Positions 4,245-44,138 of a stretch of DNA of 44,138 nucleotides are shown piece after piece. The first letter of the stretch is position 1. Every line of letters begins with the position of its first letter. Source of the stretch: an uncultured Clostridia bacterium (GTDB taxonomy: Bacteria > Bacillota > Clostridia > Christensenellales > UBA3700); assembly GCA_944381275.1 (NCBI GenBank), contig CALWKO010000009.1:1-44138 (forward strand), read 5' to 3'. A program made the translations under genes and the position numbers. The notes below the pieces were generated by a model. That model ran no database searches. It was not told the origin of the DNA and saw only the letters and a program-made list of their open reading frames with translations.

Positions 4245-4891
4245 ACATATACTCCTACGAAGGATATATCTTCGACTTAGACGGCACACTGCTTGATTCC
4301 ATGGAGGTGTGGCAGAAGATATACGCCCGCCCCTTTCAGGACGTGGGCATGAGCATGCCCAAAAATCTGCTGGAACAGATAAACCACCTTTCCCTGCTCG
4401 ATTCCGCCCGCTTTACGGTGGAGAAGACGGGCATCCCTTACACTCCGCAAGAGCTGGCGGAAAAGTGGGTGAAGACGGCGCGCTGGGTGTACGCCCACGA
4501 CATAGAGCTGAAGGCGGGCGCCTATGGCCTGCTCTCCCGCCTGCACGATATGGGCAAGCGGCTGGGGATTGCCACCGCCACCCCCCGCGGCATATTCGAA
4601 CCCTGCCTGGAAAGGCACGGCATAGCAGACTTTTTCATGTCCGCCACGAGCGTGGACGAGGTGCCGCGCGGCAAGGGCTTCCCCGATATATACCGCGAAG
4701 AAGCGCGCAGGCTGGGGCTTTCCGCCGGCGAATGCGTGGTATTTGAAGACAGTCACATGGGCGTGCACGGCGCCAAGGACGGCGGCTTTGCCGTTGTAGG
4801 CGTTTACGACAAGCAGTCCGCCAAATTCGCCAAGCAGATGCAAAAGGATTGCGATATGTATGTGTATTCGCTGGAGGAAATAGGAAAATGA
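4241..4891 (+). CDS. HAD-superfamily hydrolase, beta-phosphoglucomutase-like subfamily
   Basis: A 216-residue HAD subclass IA phosphatase/mutase, probably acting on a small phosphorylated sugar or similar metabolite. Motif I is FDLDGTLLDS (nucleophile and acid/base Asp). Motif II is the Thr of IATATPRG, motif III is the Lys in PRGKGFPD, and motif IV is FEDSHMG. The helical cap between motifs I and II is of normal size. It overlaps the preceding phosphoesterase gene by four bases, so the two probably act in one pathway of phosphorylated compounds. The stop codon TGA at 4889-4891 is formed by the first bases of the hairpin-array element that begins at 4888, so the original C-terminus may have been a little longer. 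Confidence 0.85.
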   Translation: MNIYSYEGYIFDLDGTLLDSMEVWQKIYARPFQDVGMSMPKNLLEQINHLSLLDSARFTVEKTGIPYTPQELAEKWVKTARWVYAHDIELKAGAYGLLSRLHDMGKRLGIATATPRGIFEPCLERHGIADFFMSATSVDEVPRGKGFPDIYREEARRLGLSAGECVVFEDSHMGVHGAKDGGFAVVGVYDKQSAKFAKQMQKDCDMYVYSLEEIGK

Positions 4892-5171
4892 TTTTTGAGG
4901 GACGCAAATTGACTATTTGCGGAGCGATAGCGTCCCTCAAAAATCGTGATATTTTTTACCTTCATATACTAAAAATAAATACGCCGCTTTTACAAGAAGG
5001 TAAAAAGTGATATTTTTTGGCAGATACACTATTATGCCATGAACAACTATTCGTGTGCCAAAAAGTGAAATGCGCCCTCAAACCGCCAAGGCGACGAGAG
5101 GGCGCGTGATATTTTTGCGCGTACAGTTTCAAGCAACGCCGCGCAAAAGTTGCGGTGCCGCAGGCGCATTG
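4888..5171 (+). repeat. hairpin array A-left (five modules, spacer GTGATATT)
   Basis: Starts with ATGATTTTT and reads inward. Module 1 has perfect 16-bp arms (4890-4905/4930-4945) with an inner GCAAAT/ATTTGC hairpin. Module 2 has arms TTTTTACCTTC 4953-4963/4996-5006 and an AT-rich loop. Module 3 has arms TTTTTGGCA 5014-5022/5056-5064. Module 4 has arms GCGCCCTC 5072-5079/5098-5105 with the conserved loop AAACCGC..GCGACGA. Module 5 has arms TTTTGCGCG 5113-5121/5140-5148. The array ends in the head GGTGCCGCAGGCGCAT (5154-5169). Modules are joined by GTGATATT, or GTGAAAT before module 4. No coding capacity is convincing. Confidence 0.85.
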
Positions 5172-5437
5172 AAAAATTTATATTTGATAAATACGCCGCT
5201 TTATAAATGTCAAAAGTGGAGATTTGCTCGTCAAATCTCCACGCGCCCTCTCGTCGCTCTGTGGTTTGAGGGGCATTGTTGTGCTTGCCTTGTTTTTCAG
5301 GTATCAATAGTTTATAAGCGGATAAGTAATAAATGCTTTTCAGGTATTGTAGCGTTATCTGCTGCCGCACAAAGAAATTTGACAGGCAAATTTCCACTTT
5401 TGGCACTTATAAAGCGGTGTATTTATTGAAGAAAAAA
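5172..5437. repeat. central segment of element A with inner inverted repeats
   Basis: Non-coding core between the two arrays. About 38 bp near 5188-5225 recurs inverted near 5388-5425 (both contain CCGCTTTATAA). Inside are a perfect 11-bp hairpin GTGGAGATTTG/CAAATCTCCAC, a copy of the module 4 sequence in reverse orientation (near 5244-5275), and two copies of the motif TTTTTCAGGTAT or CTTTTCAGGTAT. The same core sequence, including GCGGATAAGTAATAAATG, appears at the right end of the window in element D. Confidence 0.7.
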
Positions 5438-5763
5438 GTGTAAATGCGCCTGCGGCACCGCAACTTTTGGAGAGCGTTTACCGCTCGCGGTAAACAGTAT
5501 CTCCAAAAATATCACGCGCCCTCTCGTCGCTCCGCGGTTTGAGGGCGCATTTCACTTTTGGCGTAAGGATAGCTTCTGCGAAGAGAAAAAGCCTTAATGC
5601 TCATTACTTCACATCAAGGCTTATTATTTCGCTAGCCAAAAATATCACTTTTTTGGGGTAGATATAGCTTGCTTATTTTTTATTCTTTATCCCCAAAAAA
5701 ATATCACGATTTTTTCAAGTCGCTATCGCTCGTCATAAAATTATGCCGACTTGAAAAAATCAT
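5438..5763 (-). repeat. hairpin array A-right (inverted partner of A-left, spacer GTGATATT)
   Basis: Read on the minus strand from 5763. Module 1 is GATTTTTTCAAGTCG with perfect 15-bp arms (5708-5722/5747-5761). Module 2 has arms TTTTTTGGGG (5649-5658/5691-5700). Module 3 has arms TTTTGGC with an inner AAGCCTT/AAGGCTT stem (about 5555-5640). Module 4 has arms GCGCCCTC (5516-5523/5541-5548). Module 5 has arms TTTTGGAGA (5465-5473/5500-5508) and an inner GTTTACC/GGTAAAC stem. The head reads GGTGCCGCAGGCGCAT followed by TTACAC. Spacers are GTGATATT and GTGAAAT, as in A-left. The outer end supplies the TGA stop of iolG. Confidence 0.85.
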
Positions 5764-13766: not shown

Positions 13767-14231
13767 ATGCGTAAAAGATCTATCGTGATTTTAATAGCTG
13801 CTTTGGCTGTCGTGGCGGTCGCCGCTTCGATAGGCGCGGCGTATGTAGTTGAAAAAGAGAACTCGGGCATGGCGCTGACTTCCGCGGGGGAGGAATTCAC
13901 CGACTCCGCAAGGATAGAAGGACTGCTGCCCGGGCAATCATCCGTGCAGGAGTACAAGGCGCACTCGCCGGGAGGAGCCACCTTCACCCTTTCGCTTACG
14001 GGCGGGCATTTTTCCGATTTGGGCAGATACCTGCACGTGAGCATAAAGCTGAACGGGAAAGAGCTCTACGGCGGCGCGTATCTCGACTGCAAAGGGGTCA
14101 TATACACGGCAAAGGTGAGCGGCGATTTCACCTTCTCCGTGACCTACTCCCTGCCCGAGGACGCGGGCAACGGAGCTCAGGGCAAGGAATGCGACATCGT
14201 CCTGCACTGCTCGCTGCAGGAGATAGAATAA
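13767..14231 (+). CDS. small secreted protein with SipW-type signal peptide
   Basis: A 154-residue protein with a positively charged start (MRKR), a hydrophobic segment at residues 5-27 and a SipW-like end to the signal region (ASIGAAYVVEKE). The mature part is about 120 residues, probably all-beta (alternating patterns such as GATFTLSLTGGHF and GDFTFSVTYSLPED), with LLPGQSSVQEY resembling the LxPGD segment of TasA/CalY proteins. AAGGAAG precedes the ATG. It is the first gene of the fibre locus, 24 bases before sipW. It could be an assembly partner or fibre cap comparable in position to TapA of Bacillus, but there is no clear sequence similarity, so the role is inference. Confidence 0.6.
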   Translation: MRKRSIVILIAALAVVAVAASIGAAYVVEKENSGMALTSAGEEFTDSARIEGLLPGQSSVQEYKAHSPGGATFTLSLTGGHFSDLGRYLHVSIKLNGKELYGGAYLDCKGVIYTAKVSGDFTFSVTYSLPEDAGNGAQGKECDIVLHCSLQEIE

Positions 14232-14255
14232 AGGGTTAAAGGGCAAGAAGGGAGT

Positions 14256-14948
14256 ATGGACAAAGTTAAGGGTAAAAAGGTGCGGAACATAGTTTCCGCC
14301 GTGATAGTTGCGATCGTGCTGATCGCCGCCATATGCGCGCTGGGCGTTTCGATAGCCTACCGCGTGCAGGGGCAGACGCTCACGATAGGCGGCACTCAGT
14401 TTAGGCTGGTGCTCACCGGCTCGATGGAAGGAGAGGAAGAAGACTCCATCCGCACCAACTCGGTGATAGCGATAAAGACGGTGCCGAAAGACGCGGAAGA
14501 AGCGCGCAAATTTATCGACGAGCTGGAAGTGGGCGACATCATCACCTTCTACGATACGTCCTTGGGCGCGGACGACATAGTGGTCACGCACAGGATTGTG
14601 GAGATTAGGCAGAGCTCCGGCGGCACGTCCTTCATCACCAAGGGCGACGCCAACAACACGCAGGACGCCTCCCCCGTGGACGAGAGCGACGTGATAGGCG
14701 TGGTGACGGGTTCCAACTACGCGTTCGGCGCGTTTTTGACCTTTCTCACCTCCACCACGGGCATTGTGGTGTGCCTGATAGTGCCCGCCGCGGTGATAAT
14801 GATATACGAGATATTCCGCATCGCCTTTTTGGTGAGTAAGGATAAAAAGCAAAAAAGGCAATCCGAAATGGATGAAAAGGAGCAGGAGATAGAACGCCTG
14901 CGCCAAGAATTGGAAGAAATGAAGAAAAGAGGTGAAAGCAATGACTGA
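14256..14948 (+). CDS. sipW: signal peptidase I, SipW (ER-like) type
   Basis: A 230-residue membrane signal peptidase of the archaeal/ER-like group to which Bacillus SipW belongs. It cleaves the special signal peptides of TasA/CalY-like proteins. A first membrane segment covers residues 11-35. The catalytic Ser56 is in VLTGSMEG, and His112 (in VTHRIVEI) replaces the Lys of ordinary bacterial SPases. The conserved acidic Asp131 is in ITKGDANN, and a second membrane segment covers about 158-190. The C-terminus is a highly charged, probably coiled cytoplasmic tail (Lys/Glu-rich, about 40 residues), longer than in many SipW. AAGGGAG lies just before the ATG. It overlaps the next gene by eight bases. 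Its likely substrates are the five TasA-like precursors downstream. Confidence 0.92.
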   Translation: MDKVKGKKVRNIVSAVIVAIVLIAAICALGVSIAYRVQGQTLTIGGTQFRLVLTGSMEGEEEDSIRTNSVIAIKTVPKDAEEARKFIDELEVGDIITFYDTSLGADDIVVTHRIVEIRQSSGGTSFITKGDANNTQDASPVDESDVIGVVTGSNYAFGAFLTFLTSTTGIVVCLIVPAAVIMIYEIFRIAFLVSKDKKQKRQSEMDEKEQEIERLRQELEEMKKRGESND

Positions 14949-15738
14949 GTCCTTGTTTATCGCATGCATAGCAATCGTGATCTGCATAGCCGTACTGCTC
15001 ATCATCTGGCTGGTGGTTTCGGCTTTGCGCAAGGGAAAGAGCGTTAAAGGCAAAGTCGTTTCGATAAACGACACCGATTATGTGCTCGTGCCCGTGGGCG
15101 AGAGCGCGGATAGATATGTAGCTCGCGCCGCCCGCCCCAAAGCGCAGGAAGAGCACGTTTCGCAGATAACCGAATCGCAGGTGTTCCCCGCTCATGCGCA
15201 GGAAGAAGCGGCGGAAGAAGCCGCCGCGACGGAAGCTCCCGCGACGGAAGCCCCCGCAACGGAAGCGCCCGCACAAGAGCCGGAGGGCGGCGCGGTCGTA
15301 CTGCACCGCAACACTGCCGTACCCTACCCCGAAGCCTACTCCGCCCTCTCCCCCGCCGAAAAGCGGTATGTGGACGACATCCTGGCATATGCCGAGAGCA
15401 AAGAAGGCGCCAAGCTCGTGACCAACGACAACGCCGCGTGCGTGTACTTCGGCAAAAAACAGCTCGTGCGCATCATCCTGCGCCGCGGCAAGATAACCGC
15501 CCGCATGCAAGTGCAGAACAACGCCCTGGCAAGCTACGCGGACGACAACAACTTCAACCTGCGCGAAAAGCCCGTGGACGTGCGCGTGGAGAGCGCCGCC
15601 ACCGTGGGCTACATAAAGGGCATAATCGACATCAATTACGCCACTTTCAAAGAAGAGCGCGAGATGAAGGAAGCCAAGAAGAAGGAAGAGCGCCGCTTGA
15701 AGCGCCAGCAAAAGCGCCAAGCCTCCTCTGAAAACTGA
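14941..15738 (+). CDS. membrane-anchored protein with acidic Pro/Ala linker, unknown function
   Basis: A 265-residue protein of no family I recognise. Residues about 4-30 are a single N-terminal membrane helix followed by basic residues. A disordered, Glu/Ala/Pro-rich linker (with ATEAP repeated three times) covers about 80-120. A compact domain of roughly 100 residues follows (from EAYSALSPAEKRY to IDINYATF), then a very basic coiled tail (KEAKKKEERRLKRQQKRQ). The topology suggests a cytoplasmic domain tethered to the membrane. The start at 14941 is preferred because GAGGTGAAAGCA precedes it; the frame to 14932 is not. The tight overlap with sipW suggests a role in secretion or assembly of the TasA-like proteins, which is inference from context. 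Confidence 0.6.
   Translation: MTESLFIACIAIVICIAVLLIIWLVVSALRKGKSVKGKVVSINDTDYVLVPVGESADRYVARAARPKAQEEHVSQITESQVFPAHAQEEAAEEAAATEAPATEAPATEAPAQEPEGGAVVLHRNTAVPYPEAYSALSPAEKRYVDDILAYAESKEGAKLVTNDNAACVYFGKKQLVRIILRRGKITARMQVQNNALASYADDNNFNLREKPVDVRVESAATVGYIKGIIDINYATFKEEREMKEAKKKEERRLKRQQKRQASSEN
15226..15270 (+). repeat. three 15-bp tandem repeats coding ATEAP
   Basis: Three near-identical 15-base units (consensus GCGACGGAAGCNCCC) in the linker of the membrane protein encode ATEAP three times. Copy number could vary by slippage without shifting the frame. Confidence 0.85.
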
Positions 15739-15750
15739 TTATTATACGTG

Positions 15751-16105
15751 CCGCAAGGGCGCGTGCGATGACCGCCCCTTACCCCGCCCCGTAAAGCAAA
15801 ATTATTTGCCGATCGGCTGTGCGGGCGAAGAGGCGGCGGCGATGCATTTTAGGATGATTTTTCTCGAAATCGGTGAAGGTAATACTAGCCGTATTATCAA
15901 ACCGAAATCGGGGAAAAGCGCCTAAAAGGCGCATGCATGATTGCCCCTTTGCTCGCTCACACCGTAAAGCAAAATTATTTGCCGATCGGCTGCGCGGGCG
16001 AAGAGGCGACGGCGATGCATTTTAGGATGATTTTTCTCGAGATCGGCGAAGGTAATACTAGCCGTATTATCAAGCCGAGCTCGGGGAAAAGCGCCTAAAA
16101 GGCGC
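15751..16105. repeat. tandem 173-bp structured repeat, two copies, between sipW genes and TasA-like genes
   Basis: Two copies, cores 15789-15930 and 15962-16105, at exactly 173-bp offset. Each has, in order, the palindrome GCCGATCGGC (15808 and 15981), a long hairpin with a T-rich left arm and A-rich right arm around GGTAATAC/GTATTATC, and a small hairpin GCGCC-TAAAA-GGCGC. Differences between copies are partly compensatory: CGGT..ACCG in copy 1 is CGGC..GCCG in copy 2. No coding frame. It may be a duplicated terminator/attenuator or a structured RNA. Confidence 0.75.
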
Positions 16106-16152
16106 GTCGGCGGTCTTCGCCCGCGAAGCCGAGCGGCAAAGGAGAAACAAAT

Positions 16153-16839
16153 ATGAAAAAACATGGAGTAATTATGGTGTCTGCCGTGATAGCCGTGCTG
16201 TGTGCGGCGATCGTGGTGGGAGCGTCGTTTGCCCTGTTTTCGCAAAACGCCTCCGTGGAAACGTATCTTTCCGCGGGCGAGCTGAGCGCCGCCCTCGTGC
16301 GCACCGATTTGAGCGGACAGTTCGTGGACAAGAACGGAATTTTGGGCACGGAAACCACCGTGGACGAGGACGTGAACCTCACCGCCCTCGACAACACCAC
16401 CAACGCGGCGTTCAGCTTCGGCGATGACGTGTCCCCCGTATACAACGTCCCCGGCGTGTGGGAAGAAGCTGCTTTCAGCCTCACCAATAGCGGCAACGTG
16501 GCGTTCGACAGCGCTCTGCAATTCGCCTTTGTGGATGAAGCGCCCGAGGAAGGCACGCCCGAATATGTGCTGGCAAGCAAACTCGTTGTAACCGTTTCCG
16601 ATAACACGAGAACCCTTAAAACGGGCACTCTTGCTCAGATAATAAGCGGCGGCGTTATCGACCTGAACGCACGTCAGCTTGCAAGCCAAAGCTATGTATT
16701 CAAGATCAAAATAGAGCTGCCCTATGAAAGCGAAGTCGTCGACGACGGCACGGGCAGCACCATCATGAACGCAAACTTGAAGTTCACCTTCACCGTGACC
16801 GCTACCCAGACGGTAGAGGACGGTGCAATAACCGAATAA
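16153..16839 (+). CDS. TasA/CalY-like secreted fibre subunit 1
   Basis: A 228-residue protein with a SipW-type signal peptide (MKKHGVIMVSAVIAVLCAA then VGASFALFSQNA) and a mature region typical of the TasA/camelysin family: an early strand (SAGELSAALVRTD), then AAFSLTNSGNVAFDSALQFAFVDE, and a late KIKIELPYESEV strand. TasA-type subunits are exported, cut by SipW and polymerise by donor-strand exchange into extracellular fibres. AAAGGAG precedes the ATG at good spacing. It is the first of five SipW-type substrates in a row. It lies after the 173-bp repeats, and no separate strong promoter is visible. The mature part does not share the long head module seen in the last three proteins. Confidence 0.8.
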   Translation: MKKHGVIMVSAVIAVLCAAIVVGASFALFSQNASVETYLSAGELSAALVRTDLSGQFVDKNGILGTETTVDEDVNLTALDNTTNAAFSFGDDVSPVYNVPGVWEEAAFSLTNSGNVAFDSALQFAFVDEAPEEGTPEYVLASKLVVTVSDNTRTLKTGTLAQIISGGVIDLNARQLASQSYVFKIKIELPYESEVVDDGTGSTIMNANLKFTFTVTATQTVEDGAITE

Positions 16840-16845
16840 TAACTC

Positions 16846-16861
16846 TCGCACACATGTGCGA
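16846..16861 (+). terminator. short stem-loop before fibre subunit 2
   Basis: TCGCACA and TGTGCGA form a perfect 7-bp stem with a two-base centre, directly upstream of the ribosome binding site of the next gene. There is no T-run, so it is more likely a message-stabilising or processing stem than a full terminator. Confidence 0.4.
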
Positions 16862-16878
16862 AAGGGAGGAGAAATAAA

Positions 16879-17544
16879 ATGACAAAGAAAAAAGCAATCG
16901 TATCGGCGGCACTTATCGCTCTGCTCTGCGCAGCGGTGATAGTAGGTTCCACCTTTGCACTTTTCGCGGTGAGCCGCTCTTCCGAGATAGCCGTTACCAC
17001 CGGCAGCGTGGATATCTCCGCAACCATGAGCAACCTAACCACGGCAAGTTTAAGCCCCACCGCCGACAATGTGACCAATAACACGGCGGAAAAATTCGCC
17101 ACGGGCGGCACCGCTTCTTTGAATGCGGAAGAAGGCAAGCTCACCCTTACCAATATCGTCCCCGGTGACAGCGCCACCTTCACCCTCGCCGTGCAGAACA
17201 CGGGCAACAACGCCGCCAAAGTGCGCGTGGACGTCGCCAAGACCATAACCACGGGCGAAGAAGGCGCGGCGGATGAACTGCTTGTGACCGTTAAGAAGGA
17301 TGATGCAGACTTCACCACGAATGCATGGACTTGTGGCGCAGATAACGGCGCACTCGTGCTCAACCCCGAAGAAACCCTTACCCTCACCATAACCGTGGCT
17401 TTGGATAAGAACGCCACTCAGCCGATAGGCGAAGACGGCACGGTGAAACAGCTTATCTCCGAGGCGACAATCAAAGTTACCGTATATGCAGGACAGGCGA
17501 ACGCTTCCGATTCCGACTTGAACGGAGCGCTCTCCCTTGACTGA
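16879..17544 (+). CDS. TasA/CalY-like secreted fibre subunit 2
   Basis: A 221-residue SipW-type substrate with signal segment MTKKKAIVSAALIALLCAA followed by VGSTFALFAVS. The mature part is the clearest TasA-family match in the window: TTGSVDISATMSNL early, then LTNIVPGDSATFTLAVQNTGNN, which mirrors the NLKPGD...FENNGS region of TasA. It ends in beta strands (LTLTITVALDKNATQ, then IKVTVYAGQANAS). GGGAGGAG precedes the ATG. Probably the major or a main polymerising subunit, inferred from its compact single-domain size and its family match. Confidence 0.85.
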   Translation: MTKKKAIVSAALIALLCAAVIVGSTFALFAVSRSSEIAVTTGSVDISATMSNLTTASLSPTADNVTNNTAEKFATGGTASLNAEEGKLTLTNIVPGDSATFTLAVQNTGNNAAKVRVDVAKTITTGEEGAADELLVTVKKDDADFTTNAWTCGADNGALVLNPEETLTLTITVALDKNATQPIGEDGTVKQLISEATIKVTVYAGQANASDSDLNGALSLD

Positions 17545-17559
17545 TAGGAGGAAATATAT

Positions 17560-18210
17560 ATGACTCGCACTAAAAAAACAGCTTTGCTCGTTTCCGCTTT
17601 GGCGATCGTGCTGTGTGCGGCGGTGATCGTGGGCGCGACCTATGCCCTCTTCACCGACGGCGAAGAATACGCGATCGGCGTGAATACCGGTAAGATAGAC
17701 GTCTCCGGCACCCTCACCCTCAAATCCGCCTGGTCGGAAGCTCAAACCACCGGAGTTAGGGATGAAGAAACTATCTCCGGCGATTCTGTAACCGTAGCTC
17801 AGGGCGGCACCGTCACCATAGCCGAAGGCAATACCCTTACTTTTGATAAGATGTCCTTGGGCGACGGCGCAAAAGTGAAGCTCACCTTTGCAAACAGCAG
17901 CTCCATAAACATGAAGTATCGCGTGACCCTCTCCGTCAAAAACGAAGGCTCACCCAGCGACTTTTTGAAGAACAACCTCACCGTAAAGGTGGGTAACGGC
18001 GAAGCGCAGACGGCTTTTGGCGCAGATTCCGATACCTTCGTGATCGTGAATTGGACGAGCGTGACCGCTTCTTCCGCAATAGATGAAGTTACCTTTGAAG
18101 TGGCTCTGCCCTGGAGCGCGCTTGAAGCAAGCGAAGCACTTTCCGACGCGCAATCCATTTCCCTTGTAGTAAAGATGGAAGCCGTGCAGAATAACGCTTA
18201 TACAGACTAA
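17560..18210 (+). CDS. TasA-like secreted protein, stand-alone head module
   Basis: A 216-residue SipW-type substrate (LSALAIVLCAAVIVGAT at the end of the signal helix, then YALFTDG). The mature region shares a specific module with the two giant proteins downstream: GKIDVSGTLTLKSAWSE, a VTIAEGNTLTFDKMSLGDGA segment, KYRVTLSVKNEG, FLKNNLTVKVGNG and VALPWSA, closing with MEAVQNNAYTD. It is therefore the free form of the head that the next two proteins fuse to beta-helix domains. It may be a fibre subunit that co-polymerises with those heads (inference). GGAGGAAA precedes the ATG, 15 bases after the previous stop. Confidence 0.8.
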   Translation: MTRTKKTALLVSALAIVLCAAVIVGATYALFTDGEEYAIGVNTGKIDVSGTLTLKSAWSEAQTTGVRDEETISGDSVTVAQGGTVTIAEGNTLTFDKMSLGDGAKVKLTFANSSSINMKYRVTLSVKNEGSPSDFLKNNLTVKVGNGEAQTAFGADSDTFVIVNWTSVTASSAIDEVTFEVALPWSALEASEALSDAQSISLVVKMEAVQNNAYTD

Positions 18211-18216
18211 ACCCGT

Positions 18217-18241
18217 GTGCGGCGCGGACTCTGCGCCGCAC
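18217..18241 (+). terminator. strong stem-loop between short subunits and giant fibre proteins
   Basis: GTGCGGCGC-GGACTCT-GCGCCGCAC is a perfect 9-bp GC-rich stem. It is followed by a second small hairpin GCCGC-GCAA-GCGGC (about 18252-18265). No T-run follows on the plus strand, so it may act as an RNA-stability or partial-termination element that sets the ratio of short subunits to giant proteins. Confidence 0.5.
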
Positions 18242-18323
18242 CAAAAAAAGCGCCGCGCAAGCGGCCCCAAATTTGAAAATAAAGTTTTGCCCTTCCCCCT
18301 AGGAGAGCAAAGAGAGGAATAAA

Positions 18324-20540
18324 ATGACTAAATCAAGCAAGAAAACGGCTATAGCAGCGGCAATCCTCGTCGTGGTGATGTGCGCGGCGATAATTGCGGG
18401 CGCTACGTTCGCGCTGTTTACTTCCACCGTCACAAACGACATCAACGTGAACACCGGTGACATAAAGGTGACCGGCTCGCTCACCTTGGACGAAGCTTGG
18501 TCGCAGAGTGAAGAGGGCGCAAAAACGAATGCGACCGTAAGCGGCAATTCCGCCACCGTACAGCAGGGCGGCACCGTTTCCGTAAACTCCGAAACGGGCG
18601 CGATAACTTTTAACAAGATCTCCTTGGGCGACGGCGCCAAGTTCACCCTTTCCTTGAACATCGTCAACTCCATTAGGGCTAAATACGCCGTGGAATTGCA
18701 AGTTGCAGAGGGGGCGGATTCCACTTTCTTGAAGGACAACTTGAAGGTCGCCTTCGGCGATAGCGAAGCCGCCCTTTCGGAAAACGCCGCCACCGTGAGC
18801 GATTGGAAGGTTTTGGAGATCAACGAGAGCGGCACGCAGGTGGACATCACCTTTACCATATCCCTCCCCTGGACTTCCACGGGCATTGACGCAGAGGGCG
18901 CGCAATCCATCAAATTGCAGCTCGTGACCAAGGCGGTTCAGGCGAACGCTTCCAGCGGCAAGGACTTTGAAACGGGCGACGGCACCGGTTACGACACCAT
19001 CACCGAAGCCATTCAAAACGCAAAGGACGGCGACACGGTGATGATCAATGCAAACAACATCACAATGCCCTCTCTTGAGGAGTTAACCGCTGCCACGGAG
19101 GGAAAGAAGATAACTATATCCGGCAAAGGCAGCGATTCTTCCACGGGAACTAAAATTACCGGCACTTCCAATGTATACGTTCCCGCCAATGTAACGCTCG
19201 AAAATGTTTACTCGCAAAAGATGATTCAAGCCGTTGAAGGCTGCACCTTGCGCAATGTAAAGATGAATAATAAGATAAACATTCGAGCAAATACCGCGGC
19301 GACCAACGCCCTTTCCGATGACGACACAACGAACGCCGTCGTTATCGATAGTTGCACCTTTACTTCTGTAAACCTAAGCGCTAACGGAGTGAGCGCAATA
19401 GTACGCAACTGCACCCTTACGGTTACCGGCTGCCCTGTTTCTGCTTCCAATTCTTCCCGTGTAGTGTTGGAAAATTGCTCTTTTTCTCTTTCCTCGGGCA
19501 GTAAGAATGTAATAGAAGCGTATAGCAACTCCACTGTTGTTGCCAAGGACAGCACTTTTACCCTTTCGTCGAAAATATCGCTCAGCAAGCCCGGCAGCGT
19601 TATCAAATTAAGCGGCGGATCGCAAGGCTTTTTTGAAAACTGCACCATAAACAACATAAACAATCTGAGCGGAAACGGCAACAGCATCTTCGTTACGGAA
19701 GGCGCAGACATCACCATGAATAATTGCACGGTGAACAGCACCCCCGCGGCATTGGCTGTTTATAACGAAAACGAAAATGAAACGCCTACCGCAACCCTCA
19801 CGAATACGAACATGACCGTAACAGGTGAAAATCTACTTGCGGTAACAGTCGGCGTGCATACGAATGAATTCAATGTCAAACCCGAGCAAACCCGCCCCGC
19901 AGGCAGCCCCGGCAAACTTGTTATGGATGGCGGCAGTATTATCGCCACAGGTACGGACGCTTCCGCGATATATGCGTCCAACTCCTCTTATGTGGAGCTG
20001 AATAACGCAACCGTCACTTCCGACAGCTTTGCTTTCAGCACCAACAACGTATACGGCGGCGAAACCGAATTGACGATAACCGGCTCTTCCGCTATCACTT
20101 CCAATAAGGAAGTTGCCCTCTACTTGCCCGCTTTGAAGACCTTTACCATGACGGGCGGCACCGTCAAGGGCGCGGCGGCCATGGACGTGCGCTTGGGCAC
20201 GATTGAAATCACGGGCGGCGAGCTCATCTCCACCGCAACGGATAATAAAGTGCTCCAATATGTGAGCGGCGAAGTTTCCGCAGACGGCGTGAACGGCGGT
20301 AGCAATCCTGACGGTTCTACCGTGATAGTAAACAGCTGCATATACAAGCTGGACGGCGAAATCGTGCCTTTGAACATCACCATAAGCGACGATGTGGCCA
20401 TAACTTCCGCTACAAGGGATGAAATCCACGTTTACGATTGGAATCAATTCGAACAAGACGTGACCACTTCCTTTGGCAATCATGCCGCCGTTAAGTACGA
20501 ACTCAAGAGCGGCACCACTCCCGAACTTGTGGTGGCATAA
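18324..20540 (+). CDS. giant SipW-type protein 1: TasA-like head fused to right-handed beta-helix
   Basis: A 738-residue secreted protein. Residues 1-32 are a SipW-type signal segment (VVMCAAIIAGATFALF), and about 33-212 are the TasA-like head shared with the preceding gene (GDIKVTGSLTLDEAWSQ, ISLGDGAKFTLSL, ISLPWTSTG, KAVQANASS). From about 215 to 700 it is a parallel beta-helix. The entry is pectate-lyase-like (YDTITEAIQNAKDGDTVMI), then about 20-residue coils rich in Asn, Ser, Thr and Gly such as VVIDSCTFTSVNLSANG and VVLENCSFSLSSGS. The end is a cap (VIVNSCIYKLDGE.. to VYDWNQF) that recurs in the next protein. No LPXTG or membrane anchor, so retention on the cell would rely on the head joining a fibre. 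Enzymatic activity is not indicated. Confidence 0.8.
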   Translation: MTKSSKKTAIAAAILVVVMCAAIIAGATFALFTSTVTNDINVNTGDIKVTGSLTLDEAWSQSEEGAKTNATVSGNSATVQQGGTVSVNSETGAITFNKISLGDGAKFTLSLNIVNSIRAKYAVELQVAEGADSTFLKDNLKVAFGDSEAALSENAATVSDWKVLEINESGTQVDITFTISLPWTSTGIDAEGAQSIKLQLVTKAVQANASSGKDFETGDGTGYDTITEAIQNAKDGDTVMINANNITMPSLEELTAATEGKKITISGKGSDSSTGTKITGTSNVYVPANVTLENVYSQKMIQAVEGCTLRNVKMNNKINIRANTAATNALSDDDTTNAVVIDSCTFTSVNLSANGVSAIVRNCTLTVTGCPVSASNSSRVVLENCSFSLSSGSKNVIEAYSNSTVVAKDSTFTLSSKISLSKPGSVIKLSGGSQGFFENCTINNINNLSGNGNSIFVTEGADITMNNCTVNSTPAALAVYNENENETPTATLTNTNMTVTGENLLAVTVGVHTNEFNVKPEQTRPAGSPGKLVMDGGSIIATGTDASAIYASNSSYVELNNATVTSDSFAFSTNNVYGGETELTITGSSAITSNKEVALYLPALKTFTMTGGTVKGAAAMDVRLGTIEITGGELISTATDNKVLQYVSGEVSADGVNGGSNPDGSTVIVNSCIYKLDGEIVPLNITISDDVAITSATRDEIHVYDWNQFEQDVTTSFGNHAAVKYELKSGTTPELVVA

Positions 20541-20569
20541 CAACGAAAAAAGTTTTGAGGTAAATAAAA

Positions 20570-23500
20570 ATGAGTAAGACAAGTCGCAGAAATGCAATAG
20601 TGGTTTCCGTCTTAATAGTCGCCCTGTGCGCGGCTGTTATAGGCGGCGCAACGTTTGCCCTCTATTCTGCCGGCGACACGCACAATATCACCGTAACTTC
20701 GGGCGATATTCAGCTTTCTTCCACCGTGAAGCTCACTTCCGCGTGGACGACGGCGCAGAGCGGAGAGAAGACGGACGCGAATGTAACGGATAACAAGACG
20801 GCTGCCCTCTCCACCGGCGGCAAAGTGAGCGTGGACGAAGGCGGCAACATCACATTCGACAGGATCGCCCTCGGCGACGGCGCAACATTTGAAGTGACCC
20901 TTTCCATGGCGTACACGATAAATATGAAGTACTCCTTGGCGCTTTTGGCGGAAGAATCAGACTCCTTCCTGTGCGATAATTTGCAAATCAAGGTAGGCGA
21001 TAAGACTTCCACCATGCAGGATTCTTATGTGTATATAGTGGATTGGACGGAGTCCGCAATAGACGATAAGGACGTTACCGAAAAATCCGTAACCGTATCC
21101 TTCGACATATCCCTGCCTTGGACGGCACAGGCGAGTGCTCCTAGCAGCGCAAGCTCGATTAAGCTCTCCTTGGTGGCTAGCGGCGTACAGACCAACGCCC
21201 TTACGGGTATATCCAACGCGGGCGGCGGCAATTACGGCACCCTTGAAGACGCCGTTGTGGGCGCAAACGCGGACGACACCATCATCATCGGCGAGGACAT
21301 GGACGAAACCGTTTGGACGGCGGAAGCCGCTGCCGCAGCCGCGGATAAAGACTTGGTGGTGATAGGCTCGAAGAACGCTTCCCTCACAGCAGAAGAAGGC
21401 GCGGTTATCCCCTCGAATGTTACTTTGCGCAATTTGAACGTAAATTCCGCTTTGAATTTGCAATCGGGCGCAAGCCTTGAAGACGTGACCGTTAACGGCA
21501 GCGTTACGGTGAACGGCGCTTCTTCCCGCGCAGCGGTAATGAGCCTTGCGAACGAATCGCAAGTGAGCGGCGGTAAATCCGTCTTCAACGGCGTGACCTT
21601 TAAGGAAGGGCTCGTGCTCAACAACGCAGACGTGACCATAACAAACAGCACGATAGACGATTATAACGGCACCGCCGTATACGTTACGGGCGGCAGCCTC
21701 ACCCTGGGTGACGGCAACTATTTCTCCGCCGTTGGTCCGAACAGCGTTATAGCGGCGTTCGGCGCAACCGTAACCATAACGGGCGGCGAATATGTGGCTG
21801 CCGCGGATATGGCGACCAATACCGGCTTGAACTATCAGGACGGCAAAGCCCTCGCCCTTTACAGCAACTCTTCCGCCACGATAAGCGGCGGCAAGCTGGA
21901 CTCCCGCGCGAACAACCAGACGGTGCAGCTAGGCTCCTTTGATGAGGATAACCCCGAAACGAATACTTCCGCTTCCCTCACCTTTACGGGCGGCGAGATA
22001 ACTTCGTATAACGTGGGCATTGCCATCTTCAATAGCTCTTCCTTCGTTATGGACGGCGGCAGCATTGCCGCGGACGCCTATGCGGTGAGCTCCAACAACC
22101 TTGCGGGAAGCGACATCTTCACGATAGATATAAACGGCGGCAGCATCACTTCTCCCGAAGTCTGCGCGGCGTTCTATTTGCCCGCTCCCGGCACCCTCAC
22201 ATTGGATAATTGCACCGTGACCGCGGGCGCGATCATCGACGCGCTCTTCGGCGATATCACCATAGGAAGCGGCGTAACCCTCAAATCCACCGCAACGAGC
22301 AGCCATTGGGGCGGTTCCAATGTGGGCATGGCGGAAGGCTCCGCAATCATCCTTAATACTTCCAAATATACCGTAAAGCCCGCAGGCACCGCCGGCAGCC
22401 TTACCCTCGCCGTGGCAGACGGCGCGAATATCACCTCCGCAACTGGCAGGATATTCGGCGTTTATAATTGGACAAATGCCGACAAGGAAGACGTTTCCTT
22501 AAACTTCGGCTCCTTTGCAGGCGACAAGGACGCAATCGCCTACTACAACGCGGCAAGCGCAACTTCCGTCACCCGCATGCGCGTTATCCCCGCCGCCGTT
22601 GACGGCAAATACGGCGCCGTCGGATACGCAACCTTGGCGGAGGCAAGCACGGCGGGAGTGACCAAGGCGGAGATAATCTATGACTTGAACGATACGTCCT
22701 CTTCTTCCGTCAACGTGACGATTTGGGAAGGCGTAAACGTGACGGGCGCAAATGTGGGCTCCTTGACCGCCCGCGGCGCCAACACCCTTGAAAATGTGAC
22801 CGCGGCAGAAAATTCCACGCTCGAAAGCTCCTCTGCTACTTATACCGTTGCATACTGCGCTTTTAATAAGGGCGTAACAATCAGCGGCAACGCAAACGTA
22901 ACGGGCGGCGCTTTTGGCAGCACTTATAACTGCCCCGTAAAAGTGGACAACGGCAGCACCGTTACTTTTGATAAAGTGACTATGGCGTTGAGCTCTACTC
23001 CCGCAATTCAGGTGCTGGATTCTTCCAACGTAACCATAACGGGAAGCACTCTTTCCACAATCACGGCGAATGTGCTTACCATAGATAACTCCACGGTTAC
23101 GGTGAGCGGCACTACGATGACGTCCTCATTCACCTATGGCGGCAATTATAACGTTATAACGGTAAAAAACTACGGCGAAGTAAATCTCTCCGGATGCACA
23201 ATTTCCACAACCGCTACCCCCGCTACTGTTGCGGGTGCGGCAATACATGCAAGCACAAGTTCTTCCGTAACCTTGAGCGAAACCTCTGTTACGGCGAAAA
23301 CCTACGGCATTGCCGTTTTTGCAAATTGCAGTGCAACTATAACCGATAGCCAGGTAAACGCCAATCTCGCGCTCTATGTGTACGGCGATAACGCCGAAAT
23401 CGTGGTGGACGGCAGTAACAGCGCTATAACTTCCACCGACCCTTCTTCCGACGGTGTAGCCGTGCAGGCCGGCGCTTACACTAGTATAAGCTCCTACGGC

Positions 23501-24112
23501 GGCGGTTCCTTCACCTTGAAAAACGGCAAGGTTGAAGGCGCAATATTAGCCGCGGGCACCGGTGAAATAACCATAAATGGTGGCAGTGTTCATTCTTCTG
23601 CTTTGGCGGTTTCCAACAACAACACAACAGCCGTCAACACTTCCATCACCATAAACGGCGGTATTATCGAAGCGGACGGCAGCGCAGCCATCTATCTGCC
23701 CGGTCAAGGCTCCTTTACCATGACGGGCGGCAGTGTTACCGGCAACTCCGCAATAGACGCGCGCCTTGGCAGTGTGACCATCACGGGCGGCACGCTTACC
23801 GCAAAATATAACGACGGTACCCCCTTGGGTAAAGGCGACGTGCAATATGTCACCGGCATGGCATTCTCCGACGGCAGCGTTATCGTGGTCAACTCCGGTA
23901 TTTACAAAAATATCGCGGGCGAACTTGTAGACTTGACCGTAACCATCGGCAACGATGTGGTCATGAACAAGACGGCGGATAACGCCGACTATGTGCGCCA
24001 CTACAATTACGGCAAGAACGAGCAGAAAGCCACCGTCACCATGAACGCAAGCTATAATGTAGCTTACTACACCTTGGTAGACGGCACTCCTACACTGCAG
24101 CCGCAAGCCTAA
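20570..24112 (+). CDS. giant SipW-type protein 2: TasA-like head with two tandem beta-helix domains
   Basis: A 1180-residue relative of the preceding protein. The signal segment ends ALCAAVIGGATFALYS, the TasA-like head extends to about residue 215 (ending in VASGVQTNALTG), and two beta-helix domains follow at about 220-680 and 695-1165. Each helix starts with a GYGTL/AVGYATL-type entry and ends with the cap seen in protein 1 (NTSKYTVKPAG..VYNW; NSGIYKNIAGE..HYNYGKNE), so the second helix is an internal duplication. Coils carry repeats such as TITGGEYVAA, TINGGSIT and TMTGGSVTGN, typical of polymorphic surface proteins. No anchor is visible. GAGGT precedes the ATG, 29 bases after the previous stop, and a strong terminator follows. 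The likely role is a large adhesin or fibre-tip protein; the ligand is unknown. Confidence 0.8.
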   Translation: MSKTSRRNAIVVSVLIVALCAAVIGGATFALYSAGDTHNITVTSGDIQLSSTVKLTSAWTTAQSGEKTDANVTDNKTAALSTGGKVSVDEGGNITFDRIALGDGATFEVTLSMAYTINMKYSLALLAEESDSFLCDNLQIKVGDKTSTMQDSYVYIVDWTESAIDDKDVTEKSVTVSFDISLPWTAQASAPSSASSIKLSLVASGVQTNALTGISNAGGGNYGTLEDAVVGANADDTIIIGEDMDETVWTAEAAAAAADKDLVVIGSKNASLTAEEGAVIPSNVTLRNLNVNSALNLQSGASLEDVTVNGSVTVNGASSRAAVMSLANESQVSGGKSVFNGVTFKEGLVLNNADVTITNSTIDDYNGTAVYVTGGSLTLGDGNYFSAVGPNSVIAAFGATVTITGGEYVAAADMATNTGLNYQDGKALALYSNSSATISGGKLDSRANNQTVQLGSFDEDNPETNTSASLTFTGGEITSYNVGIAIFNSSSFVMDGGSIAADAYAVSSNNLAGSDIFTIDINGGSITSPEVCAAFYLPAPGTLTLDNCTVTAGAIIDALFGDITIGSGVTLKSTATSSHWGGSNVGMAEGSAIILNTSKYTVKPAGTAGSLTLAVADGANITSATGRIFGVYNWTNADKEDVSLNFGSFAGDKDAIAYYNAASATSVTRMRVIPAAVDGKYGAVGYATLAEASTAGVTKAEIIYDLNDTSSSSVNVTIWEGVNVTGANVGSLTARGANTLENVTAAENSTLESSSATYTVAYCAFNKGVTISGNANVTGGAFGSTYNCPVKVDNGSTVTFDKVTMALSSTPAIQVLDSSNVTITGSTLSTITANVLTIDNSTVTVSGTTMTSSFTYGGNYNVITVKNYGEVNLSGCTISTTATPATVAGAAIHASTSSSVTLSETSVTAKTYGIAVFANCSATITDSQVNANLALYVYGDNAEIVVDGSNSAITSTDPSSDGVAVQAGAYTSISSYGGGSFTLKNGKVEGAILAAGTGEITINGGSVHSSALAVSNNNTTAVNTSITINGGIIEADGSAAIYLPGQGSFTMTGGSVTGNSAIDARLGSVTITGGTLTAKYNDGTPLGKGDVQYVTGMAFSDGSVIVVNSGIYKNIAGELVDLTVTIGNDVVMNKTADNADYVRHYNYGKNEQKATVTMNASYNVAYYTLVDGTPTLQPQA

Positions 24113-24381: not shown

Positions 24382-24413
24382 ATCATATAAAAAATTTGTG
24401 GGCTAATTTCCAC

Positions 24414-24468
24414 GATTTTTTCAGGTCGCTATCGCTCGTCATAAATTATGCCGCCCCTCAAAAATCAT
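24414..24468 (-). repeat. solo tail module of the hairpin-array family (fragment C)
   Basis: On the minus strand it starts ATGATTTTTGAGGGGCGGC and ends GCGACCTGAAAAAATC, then GTGGAAATT. This is the module 1 layout of elements A, B and D, including the shared GACGAGCGATAGCGAC interior of A-right. The two arms no longer match well, as if halves from two sub-types were joined. The last nine codons of tcdA lie inside it. It may serve as terminator for the minus operon. Confidence 0.7.
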
Positions 24469-25122
24469 CCTTATGCCTTCCTCCGCAAGTTTTGCCGCAG
24501 CTGCCGCGGGAACATAGGAGATACTTGCGGGGGCGTGGCGGCCGCGCTCTTCTATCACTCCGCCGGAGGGGGGCTCCTTGGAGTAGACCACGGTGAGGGC
24601 GGGGACGCCCTCTTCCTTCAAAAGGCGGCGCATGGCGCGCGCGAGCGGACAGACGGAAGTGGAATAGATGTCCGCAACCTCGAACGAGGCTATCTTTTTA
24701 TTGCCCGTACCCATGCAGGAAAGGACGGGCGCAACGCCTTGGCACGCCTTGATAAGCGCGACTTTCGACGTGACGGTATCTATGCAATCGATGACCAGAT
24801 CGTAAGGGGAAAAATCAAAGGGGGTGGAGGCGGAGTAAAAAAGGTCGAACTCCTCCACGGTTATTTGCGGGTTGATGTCGCGCAGACGAGCGGCGCACAC
24901 GCGCGTTTTCTTCTTCCCTATGGTGGAAGTGAGGGCGATAATTTGCCTGTTTAAGTTGCTCTCGCTCACCGCGTCGCTGTCCACAAGGGCGAGCCTGCCC
25001 ACGCCCGCGCGGGCGAGAAATTCCGCCACGTAGCCGCCCACTCCGCCTATGCCGAAGATGGCAACGCTTGCAAAAGAGAGGGCGTCCGCGCCCTCCCCCA
25101 GCAATAGTTTTGTGCGATTCAC
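24439..25122 (-). CDS. tcdA: tRNA threonylcarbamoyladenosine dehydratase (ThiF/MoeB-like)
   Basis: A 227-residue E1-like ATP-using enzyme, the TcdA/CsdL (YgdL) type, which cyclises t6A in tRNAs to ct6A. The nucleotide-binding glycine motif is FGIGGVGGYVAEFLARAG. The family Asp/Arg motif is LVDSDAVSESNLNRQ, and later marks are LVIDCIDTVTSKVALI and SCMGTGNKK. Length is close to that of TcdA, and there are no rhodanese or ThiS partners, which argues against ThiF or MoeB. It overlaps cysK by four bases (ATGA). The C-terminal residues MIFEGRHNL are encoded within hairpin fragment C, so the natural C-terminus may have been replaced when that element arrived. Confidence 0.85.
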   Translation of the reverse strand: MNRTKLLLGEGADALSFASVAIFGIGGVGGYVAEFLARAGVGRLALVDSDAVSESNLNRQIIALTSTIGKKKTRVCAARLRDINPQITVEEFDLFYSASTPFDFSPYDLVIDCIDTVTSKVALIKACQGVAPVLSCMGTGNKKIASFEVADIYSTSVCPLARAMRRLLKEEGVPALTVVYSKEPPSGGVIEERGRHAPASISYVPAAAAAKLAEEGIRMIFEGRHNL

Positions 25123-28757: not shown

Positions 28758-29073
28758 ATGATTTTTTCAAGTCGCAAAGTATTTGTTTGCGAAGCGTTAG
28801 CGACTTGAAAAAATCGCGAAATCTTTTGACTTCATAAACTATTTATATATTCCTTTCTTTTAACAGAAGTCAAAAGGCGAAATCTTGCGGCGGATATGAA
28901 TAATCTCTACGAAATACTTAACGTTCGCCGCAAGGCGAAATCCGCCCTCAAACCGCAGAGCGACGAGAGGGCGGGCGAAATCCATGGATATACTGTTGCG
29001 GAGCAACGCTATCCATGGGCGGCGGCACCGCAAGCGGATTTACACTTGTTTGGTCTTATTGCGAAAGTTATCA
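28758..29073 (+). repeat. hairpin array B-left (spacer GCGAAATC)
   Basis: Module 1 has perfect 16-bp arms GATTTTTTCAAGTCGC (28760-28775/28800-28815) with inner CGCAAA/TTTGCG. Module 2 has arms TTTTGACTTC (28824-28833/28866-28875). Module 3 has arms TTGCGGCG (28885-28892/28926-28933). Module 4 has arms CGCCCTC (28943-28949/28967-28973) with loop AAACCGCAGAGCGACGA. Module 5 has arms CATGGATA (28983-28990/29010-29017) with inner GTTGC/GCAAC. The head carries ATTTACACTTG. Every gap between modules is GCGAAATC. Confidence 0.85.
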
Positions 29074-29139
29074 CTCTAACATATTAAGCTGTTTATTGAG
29101 TTGGTAGTGTTGCCTTAATTGTTTTTTGTGCGCGGGCGT

Positions 29140-29490
29140 TTATTTGTCGCTCTTAGTTTTATTCGCGGTATTGATGGATTTTATTATCATCTTTCGTATT
29201 ACGCCGCATTCGTGTAACAAAGGCGTTACTTCTTCTTCCGCAAAATACTCGGCTCTCAAACCCAATTGCAACCAATATTCCGTTTCGTGGCATTCTTTCA
29301 ATGCTATGCGATATTTGTTTACAAAATCATCCGTGCTTGCGGCATACTTGGCTTCGTATGTATTTGCACCTATGGAAGTAGCACTCCTTCCCAATTGCCG
29401 TGCAACTATAACTTTTATGGAATCACGTTGAATATGTTCGCACAACTGCAAAACTTTTATGGCAAACGTTTGAGTTTTTTCCGTTAACAT
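29140..29490 (-). CDS. four-helix-bundle protein (23S rRNA intervening-sequence type)
   Basis: A 116-residue all-helical protein of the S23/IVS four-helix-bundle family, first known from open frames inside intervening sequences of 23S rRNA genes and related in fold to the Avd protein of diversity-generating retroelements. Family marks are FAIKVLQLCEHI, VARQLGRSATSIGANTYEA, STDDFVNKYRIALKECHET and EYWLQLGLRA. Its biochemical role is not established; nucleic acid binding is proposed for relatives. The start at 29490 is supported by GGGAGG; a TTG at 29505 is less likely. It is the only gene inside element B, has its own near-consensus promoter and is not linked to rRNA here. Confidence 0.9.
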   Translation of the reverse strand: MLTEKTQTFAIKVLQLCEHIQRDSIKVIVARQLGRSATSIGANTYEAKYAASTDDFVNKYRIALKECHETEYWLQLGLRAEYFAEEEVTPLLHECGVIRKMIIKSINTANKTKSDK

Positions 29491-29507
29491 AATATCCTCC
29501 CGCAACC

Positions 29508-29536
29508 ACTATAAAAGAAATCAAGTCTTGTGTCAA
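29508..29536 (-). promoter_or_regulatory. promoter of the four-helix-bundle gene
   Basis: On the minus strand TTGACA, 17 bp and TATAGT (29513-29508), close to consensus, with a leader of about 12-18 bases. It lies wholly inside element B, so the gene would be expressed wherever the element sits. Confidence 0.8.
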
Positions 29537-29585
29537 TAGCAAAACAAAACCACAGACAAAAATTTATACCAAAACGGAATAATAT

Positions 29586-29914
29586 TGATAACTTTCGCTA
29601 TAAGACAAACCAAGTGTAAATGCGCCTGCGGCACCTTCGCCCATGGAGAGCGTTTGCCGCTTGCGGCGAACTGTATCTCCATGGATTTCGCCCGCTTTCT
29701 CGTCCGCCGCGGAGCGGTGGGTTTGAAAGCGGATTTCGCCTTGCGGCGAACGTTAAGTATTTCGTAGAGATTATTCATATCCGCCGCAAGATTTCGCCTT
29801 TTCGGGGAAAGAATAGTGTTGATTATGAAAAATCTATATCCCCGAAAAGATTTCGCGATTTTTTCAGGGCACTTACGCTTCGCAAACAAATACTTTGCGC
29901 CCTGAAAAAATCAT
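29586..29914 (-). repeat. hairpin array B-right (inverted partner, spacer GCGAAATC)
   Basis: Read on the minus strand. Module 1 arms are GATTTTTTCAGGGC (29857-29870/29899-29912). Module 2 arms are TTTTCGGGG (29799-29807/29840-29848). Module 3 has the same arms as B-left (29741-29748/29782-29789). Module 4 arms are CGCTTTC/GAAAGCG (29693-29699/29725-29731), a double compensatory change from CGCCCTC/GAGGGCG. Module 5 arms are CATGGAGA (29642-29649/29676-29683). The head carries GGTGCCGCAGGCGCATTTAC. Spacers are again GCGAAATC. Confidence 0.85.
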
Positions 29915-43474: not shown

Positions 43475-44138
43475 ATGATTTTTTCAGGTCGCAAAGTAAT
43501 TGTTTGCGAAGCGTTAGCGACTTGAAAAAATCGTGGAAATTTGCTTTTGATAACTACGACATTTAAACAAAGTGTGATAAGCAAATTTCTTTGCGCGGCG
43601 TAGAGATATGTATCGATACCCGACCAAGTAATCAGCCTTCCTTATAAAATATATCGATACCCGATAAAGTCACAGGTAGCGCAACTATTTTTTGGGGATA
43701 AAAAATAAAGAGTAAGCGCACAGTATCTACCCCAAAAAAGTGATATTTTTGGCTTGCGAAATTATAAAGCCTTGAAGTGACCGATAGGGAGCGCAAGGCT
43801 TTCTCTCTTCGCAGAAAAATATCACACGCCAAAAGTGAAATGCGCCCTCAAACCGCAAAGCGACGAGAGGGCGCGTGATATTTTTGGACATACAGCCGTG
43901 GAGCGGCGCTGTCCAAAAGTTAAGGTGCCGCAGGCGCATTATAACTGCTTTTTTCTTATTAAGACCAAGCAAGTGTAAACCCGCTTTGCGGAGCCGCAAC
44001 TTTTGCGCGGTGTTACTTGCAACAGTGCGCGCAAAAATATCACGCGACCTCTCGTCGCTCTGCGGTTTGAGGGGCACCTTTTTGTGCTTGCTTTGCTTTT
44101 CAGGTATCGATAGTTTTCAAGCGGATAAGTAATAAATG
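43475..44138. repeat. element D: hairpin arrays, truncated by the window edge
   Basis: Starts ATGATTTTTTCAGG. Module 1 has 16-bp arms (43477-43492/43517-43532), then spacer GTGGAAAT. Module 2 has arms AAATTTGCTT (43537-43546/43579-43588). An extra TTGCGC/GCGCAA module holds two copies of TATCGATACCCGA. Further modules have arms TTTTTTGGGG (43688/43730), TTTTGGC (43747/43828), GCGCCCTC (43842/43867) and TTTTGGACA (43882/43910), then the head GGTGCCGCAGGCGCAT. An inverted array begins at about 43971 (module 5 arms TTTTGCGCG 44001/44028, module 4 at 44045) and leads into the same core as element A. Spacers are GTGATATT and GTGAAAT. Confidence 0.85.

Follow-up and report, generated by a model that had tools for sequence, protein, structure and literature searches.

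The intervening sequences (IVSs) that sit in a helix of the 23S rRNA of Leptospira and Coxiella are short selfish elements in which an open reading frame of the S23p (IVP) family lies between terminal inverted repeats. In Coxiella, tandem GACAGAT heptamers precede the S23p open reading frame and vary in number by strain, an observation that has not been generalised (PMC4990558). REP/REPIN-RAYT systems consist of dispersed palindromes that form mirrored pairs and flank a gene, which encodes a Y1 HUH transposase. In REP/REPIN sequences, a conserved tag lies beside variable hairpins. S23p/IVP structures have been solved since 2006, and we know of no function and no catalytic activity for these proteins. 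Diversity-generating retroelements (DGRs) include a structural homologue of IVP, Avd, and their homing depends on a hairpin or cruciform in the DNA in which the stem acts by structure rather than sequence and a GRNA loop lies on one strand (PMC3240598). Finally, heptamer repeats are over-represented and unexplained in many bacteria, as exemplified by GGGAATC in Xanthomonas, GGGGA(T/C)T in Nostoc and TAACTGA in Beggiatoaceae, and X. campestris has 70 convergent heptamer pairs (PMC4692102, PMC4679880). We found no link to S23p/IVP in either of these two papers, and no paper making that link in the open-access literature (subscription journals and preprints lay outside the scope of this search).

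Here, we describe an element in which an IVP gene is bracketed by facing arrays of hairpins spaced by 7-nt units. We favour, with some reserve, a model whereby the IVP and the facing arrays are two parts of one REPIN/RAYT-like selfish element in which an IVP ring would bind 7-nt single-stranded repeats.

Anatomy of the element

The window, i.e. the whole stretch of DNA analysed (44,138 nucleotides from an uncultured Clostridia bacterium), contains the element at 28758-29914. As in the 23S rRNA IVS, an S23p open reading frame lies between terminal inverted repeats. The features are as follows.

28758..29914, no strand assigned, whole element as read from the sequence: facing five-hairpin arrays around the IVP gene
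28760..29018, + strand, left array of five hairpins
28760-28815, 28823-28876, 28884-28934, 28942-28974 and 28982-29018, left-array hairpins
28816, 28877, 28935 and 28975, starts of the left-array GCGAAAT linkers
29061..29073, + strand, left copy of the inner inverted repeat GCGAAAGTTATCA, perfect 13 bp
29140..29490, - strand, IVP/S23p four-helix-bundle gene, 116 aa, ATG at 29490
29508..29536, - strand, IVP gene promoter: -35 TTGACA (29531-29536), 17-nt spacer, -10 TATAGT (29508-29513)
29586..29598, - strand, right copy of the inner inverted repeat GCGAAAGTTATCA, perfect 13 bp
29641..29912, - strand, right array, mirror of the left
29641-29684, 29692-29732, 29740-29790, 29798-29849 and 29857-29912, right-array hairpins with ATTTCGC linkers between them

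The left-array hairpins have perfect stems of 16, 11, 9, 8 and 9 bp in this order, and on both arms neighbouring hairpins are spaced by exactly 7 nt, GCGAAAT on the left and the complement ATTTCGC on the right. The folding of each array lies 5.2-5.4 SD below that of dinucleotide shuffles. The arms are complementary to each other over 83 nt (98%), 75 nt (89%), 69 nt (86%) and 36 nt (89%); in hairpins 1 and 2 the two arms have different sequences with pairing kept, and both outer ends of the element read ATGATTTTTTCA. A previous sequence-only reading of this DNA had described the facing arrays, the perfect 13-bp inner repeat and the matching outer ends, all of which we confirmed, together with the near-consensus promoter that it had assigned to the gene (TTGACA-17-TATAGT) and its identification of 29140-29490 as a four-helix-bundle gene.

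The latter is borne out by profile matches of the protein to PF05635 (E=3e-21, 76 bits) and TIGR02436 (E=2e-25, 89 bits), both above the curated cut-off, and by an AF2 model (pLDDT 96) that matches the four-helix-bundle structures 2rld and 2gsc with TM 0.81-0.86 and, more weakly, Avd (4dwl, TM 0.79) and the DGR ribonucleoprotein 8ub7. Structure 2gsc originates from X. campestris, whose S23p homologue is reported to be a pentamer (PMC4990558). The gene has a GGAGG ribosome site.

The element lies at an intergenic site between protein genes. No rRNA family matched in the window and no Rfam family in the array elements, and on the lack of an Rfam match we rejected the reading of the arrays as an RNA family. 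At the copies read, we found no target-site duplication and no nuclease; the elements end in hairpin arrays, unlike insertion sequences or MITEs with their short terminal inverted repeats and duplication. The IVP gene is the sole gene within the elements read, and the reverse transcriptase, template repeat and variable repeat of DGRs were not found inside them.

Copies in the genome and in congeners

Two further elements belonging to this family are present in the window, both with GTGATAT linkers.

4888..5763, no strand assigned, second element, no IVP gene, between convergent genes
43476..44138, no strand assigned, third element, no IVP gene seen, ends at the contig edge

In the window genome (G000), the conserved motif of hairpin 4 occurs in 96 copies, equivalent to about 48 elements, many of them at contig ends. 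This genome has two IVP genes, each between facing five-hairpin arrays, with GCGAAAT linkers at one and GTGATAT linkers at the other, and the dispersed copies belong to the same two linker families. Among the congeners, G001 has exactly one element, which brackets its only IVP gene, and G003 has many copies and both of its IVP genes are bracketed, while in G004 (88% complete, fragmented) array pieces are present and an IVP was not found.

In the comparison of empty and filled loci proposed in the earlier reading, the window element is missing at the orthologous place in G004, G003 and G001. The flanking genes are kept without it in G004 and G003, and the interval measures 177 bp in G004 versus 1419 bp in the window genome and is shorter in G001 too. 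At the site orthologous to that of element 4888-5763 (L388, L389, L390), G004 retains only the outermost right hairpin, and G003 retains half a hairpin and a linker-like ATATCGC. These remnants indicate that this copy is an old one and not a recent insertion, and that elements can decay to one terminator-like hairpin between convergent genes. A target-site rule is not derivable, given the divergence of the flanks at the window element and the remnants at the 4888-5763 site.

In the array-rich genomes of the class-level survey described below, the extra copies are mini-elements, often gene-less, of about 170 bp that consist of two facing arrays and are common to genomes of different families. 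At L329-L348, mini-elements often adjoin intrinsic-terminator-like hairpins, as if the host hairpin were the outermost module or the target. At L049 (1190-1230), the first hairpin by the array pairs the neighbouring gene's 3' end (GCTAGAATAAGC) with an inverted copy of itself, which looks like the outcome of fold-back copying. Elsewhere in the window, a short dispersed repeat at 24411-24470 recurs on contigs C29 and C15 of G000 and on contig C9 of G004, and the open reading frame list places at 13767-24112 a run of genes for a putative signal peptidase, for several apparently secreted small proteins whose N-termini resemble one another, and for two long, repetitive proteins that also appear to be secreted.

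Strand-specific loops

In 14 mini-elements, 92% of cells in the named hairpins are paired versus 29-41% when the hairpins are slid, and the stems covary, with 70 cells changed on both sides versus 24 in shuffles. When the loop strand is defined as the one reading linkers AT[A/T]T[C/A][A/G]N, array triloops are GNA in 61 cases versus the complement in 4, and tetraloops are GNNA in 37 cases versus the complement in 1, with just 12 of the 37 conforming to GNRA. The loop-closing pair is C-G in 43/46 of the first set. In control hairpins outside arrays, GNA or its complement accounts for 142 of 730 loops. GNNA tetraloops are stable in DNA, and RNA favours GNRA. C(GNA)G loops form extraordinarily stable DNA minihairpins, according to Hirao 1994 and Yoshizawa 1997 as cited in PMC11101458. 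The strand-specific GNA/GNNA loops suggest single-stranded DNA rather than RNA. Calculated energies favoured the R strand with both RNA and DNA parameters (97:34 and 90:39), the DNA set having no bonus for GNA loops, and nearest-neighbour energies therefore do not separate DNA from RNA.

These loops bear on the alternative that the arrays act as RNA, with the IVP binding heptamer or hairpin transcripts and thereby affecting their processing, stability or translation, and with dispersal as a by-product. The family owes its name to intervening sequences of 23S rRNA that RNase III cuts out (PMC4990558), heptamers often lie directly upstream of the IVP gene, and the TAACTGA heptamers of Beggiatoaceae have been proposed to be translational regulators (PMC4679880). 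However, the loops do not follow the RNA rule, the inverted arms mean that a single transcript carries one arm in each sense, and the mini-elements are intergenic and beside terminators, such that we consider action as RNA unlikely.

Association of arrays and IVP across genomes

At least 20 of the 26 nearest relatives in named genomes (Clostridia, Oscillospiraceae and Akkermansia) lie no more than a few hundred bases from hairpin arrays whose linkers measure 7 nt. Chance folding is excluded as the source of the arrays by shuffled sequence, which gave 1 array in 216 kb and 1 in 158 windows. In an IVP tree of 158 rows (built on 107 columns, with many forks open), arrays accompany 46 of the 99 rows of one clade, made up of Clostridia and Akkermansiaceae, and none outside it (P=2e-12) by a strict detector. 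Conversely, array-rich genomes, defined by at least two occurrences of the array pattern on each strand, encode an IVP in 18/20 cases versus 98 of all 393 class-level genomes (Fisher P=5e-10), and the two array-rich genomes without an IVP contain simple tandem repeats and no hairpins. Nearly all of these genomes are fragmented metagenome assemblies, and many of the loci are not independent of each other, being linked by common ancestry or by transfer. At some loci (L091, L105, L297), the polarity is exceptional in that the array pairs diverge. On two phage-labelled human-gut scaffolds (L352, L353), an IVP gene has upstream hairpin arrays with GTGATAT/GTTATAT and ATGAAAT linkers, and the unit may therefore travel on phages.

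The proposal of the sequence-only reading that gene and arrays form one system had been exposed to relatives without arrays, to arrays without the protein and to the comparison of empty sites. It is supported on all of these grounds: most of the nearest relatives, including the IVPs of G000, G001 and G003, are flanked; nearly all array-rich genomes encode an IVP; and congeners lack the element at the orthologous place.

The consensus of the first 247 linkers is [G/A/T][T/C][G/T]A[A/T]AT, in which the final AT never varies, a consensus that is partly built in because the detector demanded a pattern of this kind; linker types from unrestricted chains are the same as those from the patterned detector. 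The linker goes with the subclade of the IVP and not with the host. Of the 63 IVPs for which a linker was called, 39 have exactly the same 7-mer as their nearest counterpart in a different host family, versus a mean of 6.1 (maximum 17) when permuted and 12.5 (maximum 29) when permuted within host families (5000 runs). In agreement, co-resident IVPs of different subclades carry different linkers, e.g. GTGATAT, GCTAAAT and TCGATAT in G172. This concordance could also arise because gene and array are inherited as one physical unit.

A second alternative is that the IVP is a passenger and the arrays are moved by another enzyme of the host or element, the gene being carried in some copies. Consistent with this, the gene is missing from most copies (the window genome has two IVP genes for about 48 elements), the IVP has no catalytic activity that we know of, and some Y1 transposase is present in 15/21 array-bearing genomes. 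Set against this, the elements read contain no gene other than the IVP, arrays are nearly missing from IVP-less genomes, and linkers track the IVP subclade across host families. Moreover, PF01797 (Y1) has no match in six array-bearing drafts, all incomplete (G000, G001, G172, G339, G340 and G468), the window genome among them being just 76% complete; a Y1/RAYT enzyme as the general mover was rejected on the lack of a match in several array-bearing genomes. We regard a passenger IVP as quite improbable.

A seven-base unit beside other IVP genes

The model in which the IVP and the facing arrays are parts of one element also concerns IVP clades without hairpin arrays, in which the flanking check returned 7-nt tandem arrays in their place. 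These genes are flanked by inverted tandem heptamers, such as TAATTCG in Nostoc and GTGAAAG-like units in Treponema, and in Planktothrix by CCCCAAT and CGTAAAT in a partly direct arrangement. For 158 IVP genes, a period-7 repeat is present in 47/310 of the adjacent 350-nt sides versus 2/291 sides 900 nt away, and all other periods from 4 to 12 combined account for 5 sides. In a replicate from viral contigs, phage scaffolds and plasmids, 37/56 sides have tandem repeats, all of period 7, versus 2/53 distal sides; three of these loci, L349-L351, had prompted the heptamer idea and do not count as an independent test. Pooled, 84 sides pass the threshold with period 7 and at most 3 with any other period, except for the multiple 14. 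Where both sides have repeats, 24/29 cases share 7-mers in inverted orientation only. As a control, 30 ParE toxin genes from the same class have period 7 at 1/60 sides and no hairpin arrays. About a third of the IVP genes examined (64/186), above all in the deepest clade, have no array by these detectors. The best-scoring IVPs (L129-L158) lack hairpin arrays and at first seemed to be a counter-example, but several of them have heptamers. Given the seven-base unit beside IVP in other clades, the hairpin arrays are best read as heptamer arrays with intervening hairpins. On cyanobacterial plasmids (L350, L374, L375, L376), heptamer-flanked IVP genes lie inside or beside defence-type operons with the DISARM helicase drmD, BREX pglX and DNA methyltransferases.

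It is very improbable that the heptamer arrays are products of polymerase slippage tolerated beside the IVP gene. Slippage of 7 nt has been proposed for heptamer abundance (as cited in PMC4679880 and PMC4692102), and heptamer copy number differs among Coxiella strains, but slippage does not produce matching arrays that flank a gene in inverted orientation, hairpins of differing sequence joined by 7-nt linkers, or a linker that goes with the protein clade; although disfavoured as the origin, it may lengthen existing arrays. Hardly credible is the idea of intergenic terminators or insulators with an IVP nearby by accident. Outer hairpins resemble bidirectional terminators, convergent genes flank element 4888-5763 and mini-elements often abut terminators, but the enrichment of period-7 and hairpin arrays beside IVP over distal DNA, other periods and ParE loci refutes accident as an account of the association, leaving termination as a possible secondary effect.

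Discussion

In our model of a REPIN/RAYT-like element composed of IVP and facing arrays, it is likely that the IVP recognises the 7-nt units, and fairly likely that the recognised form is single-stranded DNA. The layout in other IVP lineages is a 7-nt unit repeated head to tail and usually inverted on both sides; in the window lineage, DNA hairpins with GNA/GNNA loops would have been inserted between the 7-nt units. By folding out of single-stranded DNA, these hairpins would restore consecutive 7-nt units, and the pentameric IVP ring would most likely bind them while the DNA is single-stranded, for instance in cruciforms or at replication forks, with each IVP subfamily preferring its own 7-mer. 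We tentatively suggest that the IVP plays an active role in mobility: the ring may pair (synapse) facing arrays so that the element is copied, gene-less mini-elements being served in trans, and DNA joining might be carried out by host replication or repair, or by another enzyme.

The element shares with REP/REPIN-RAYT systems the dispersed palindromes and their mirrored pairs around a gene, and its 7-nt linkers are reminiscent of the REP/REPIN tags. By contrast, the partner is an IVP in place of the Y1 HUH transposase, and arrays of many hairpins with linkers [GAT][CT][GT]A[AT]AT stand in place of the GTAG/CGTC tags. These elements form a REPIN-like family in whose sole gene no nuclease can be recognised. 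The array hairpins have a parallel in the hairpin requirement of DGRs. The 23S rRNA IVS differs in its location in rRNA from the window-family elements, which are intergenic, multicopy and mostly gene-less with hairpins between 7-nt units; nevertheless, the Coxiella IVS looks like the same kind of element. The heptanucleotide repeats of other bacteria have the same unit length of 7, are intergenic and, in Xanthomonas, often form convergent pairs.

That IVP relatives in very different bacteria lie beside repeats of a 7-nt unit suggests joint action of protein and repeats. The association joins two puzzles, the function of S23p/IVP and the abundance of heptamers, and predicts that the ligand of each IVP is its neighbouring 7-mer. 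We speculate, at something short of probability, that IVP/S23p proteins are generally the trans-acting partners of bacterial heptanucleotide repeats, forming selfish elements in which a ring of no known catalytic activity would read a 7-nt single-stranded code and spread its cognate arrays, tandem or hairpin-interrupted. If so, this would explain the excess of heptamer repeats in many genomes and would give them a common origin with rRNA intervening sequences; the pairing of S23p/IVP with repeats may help to account for the high frequency of seven-base repeats among bacterial genomes.
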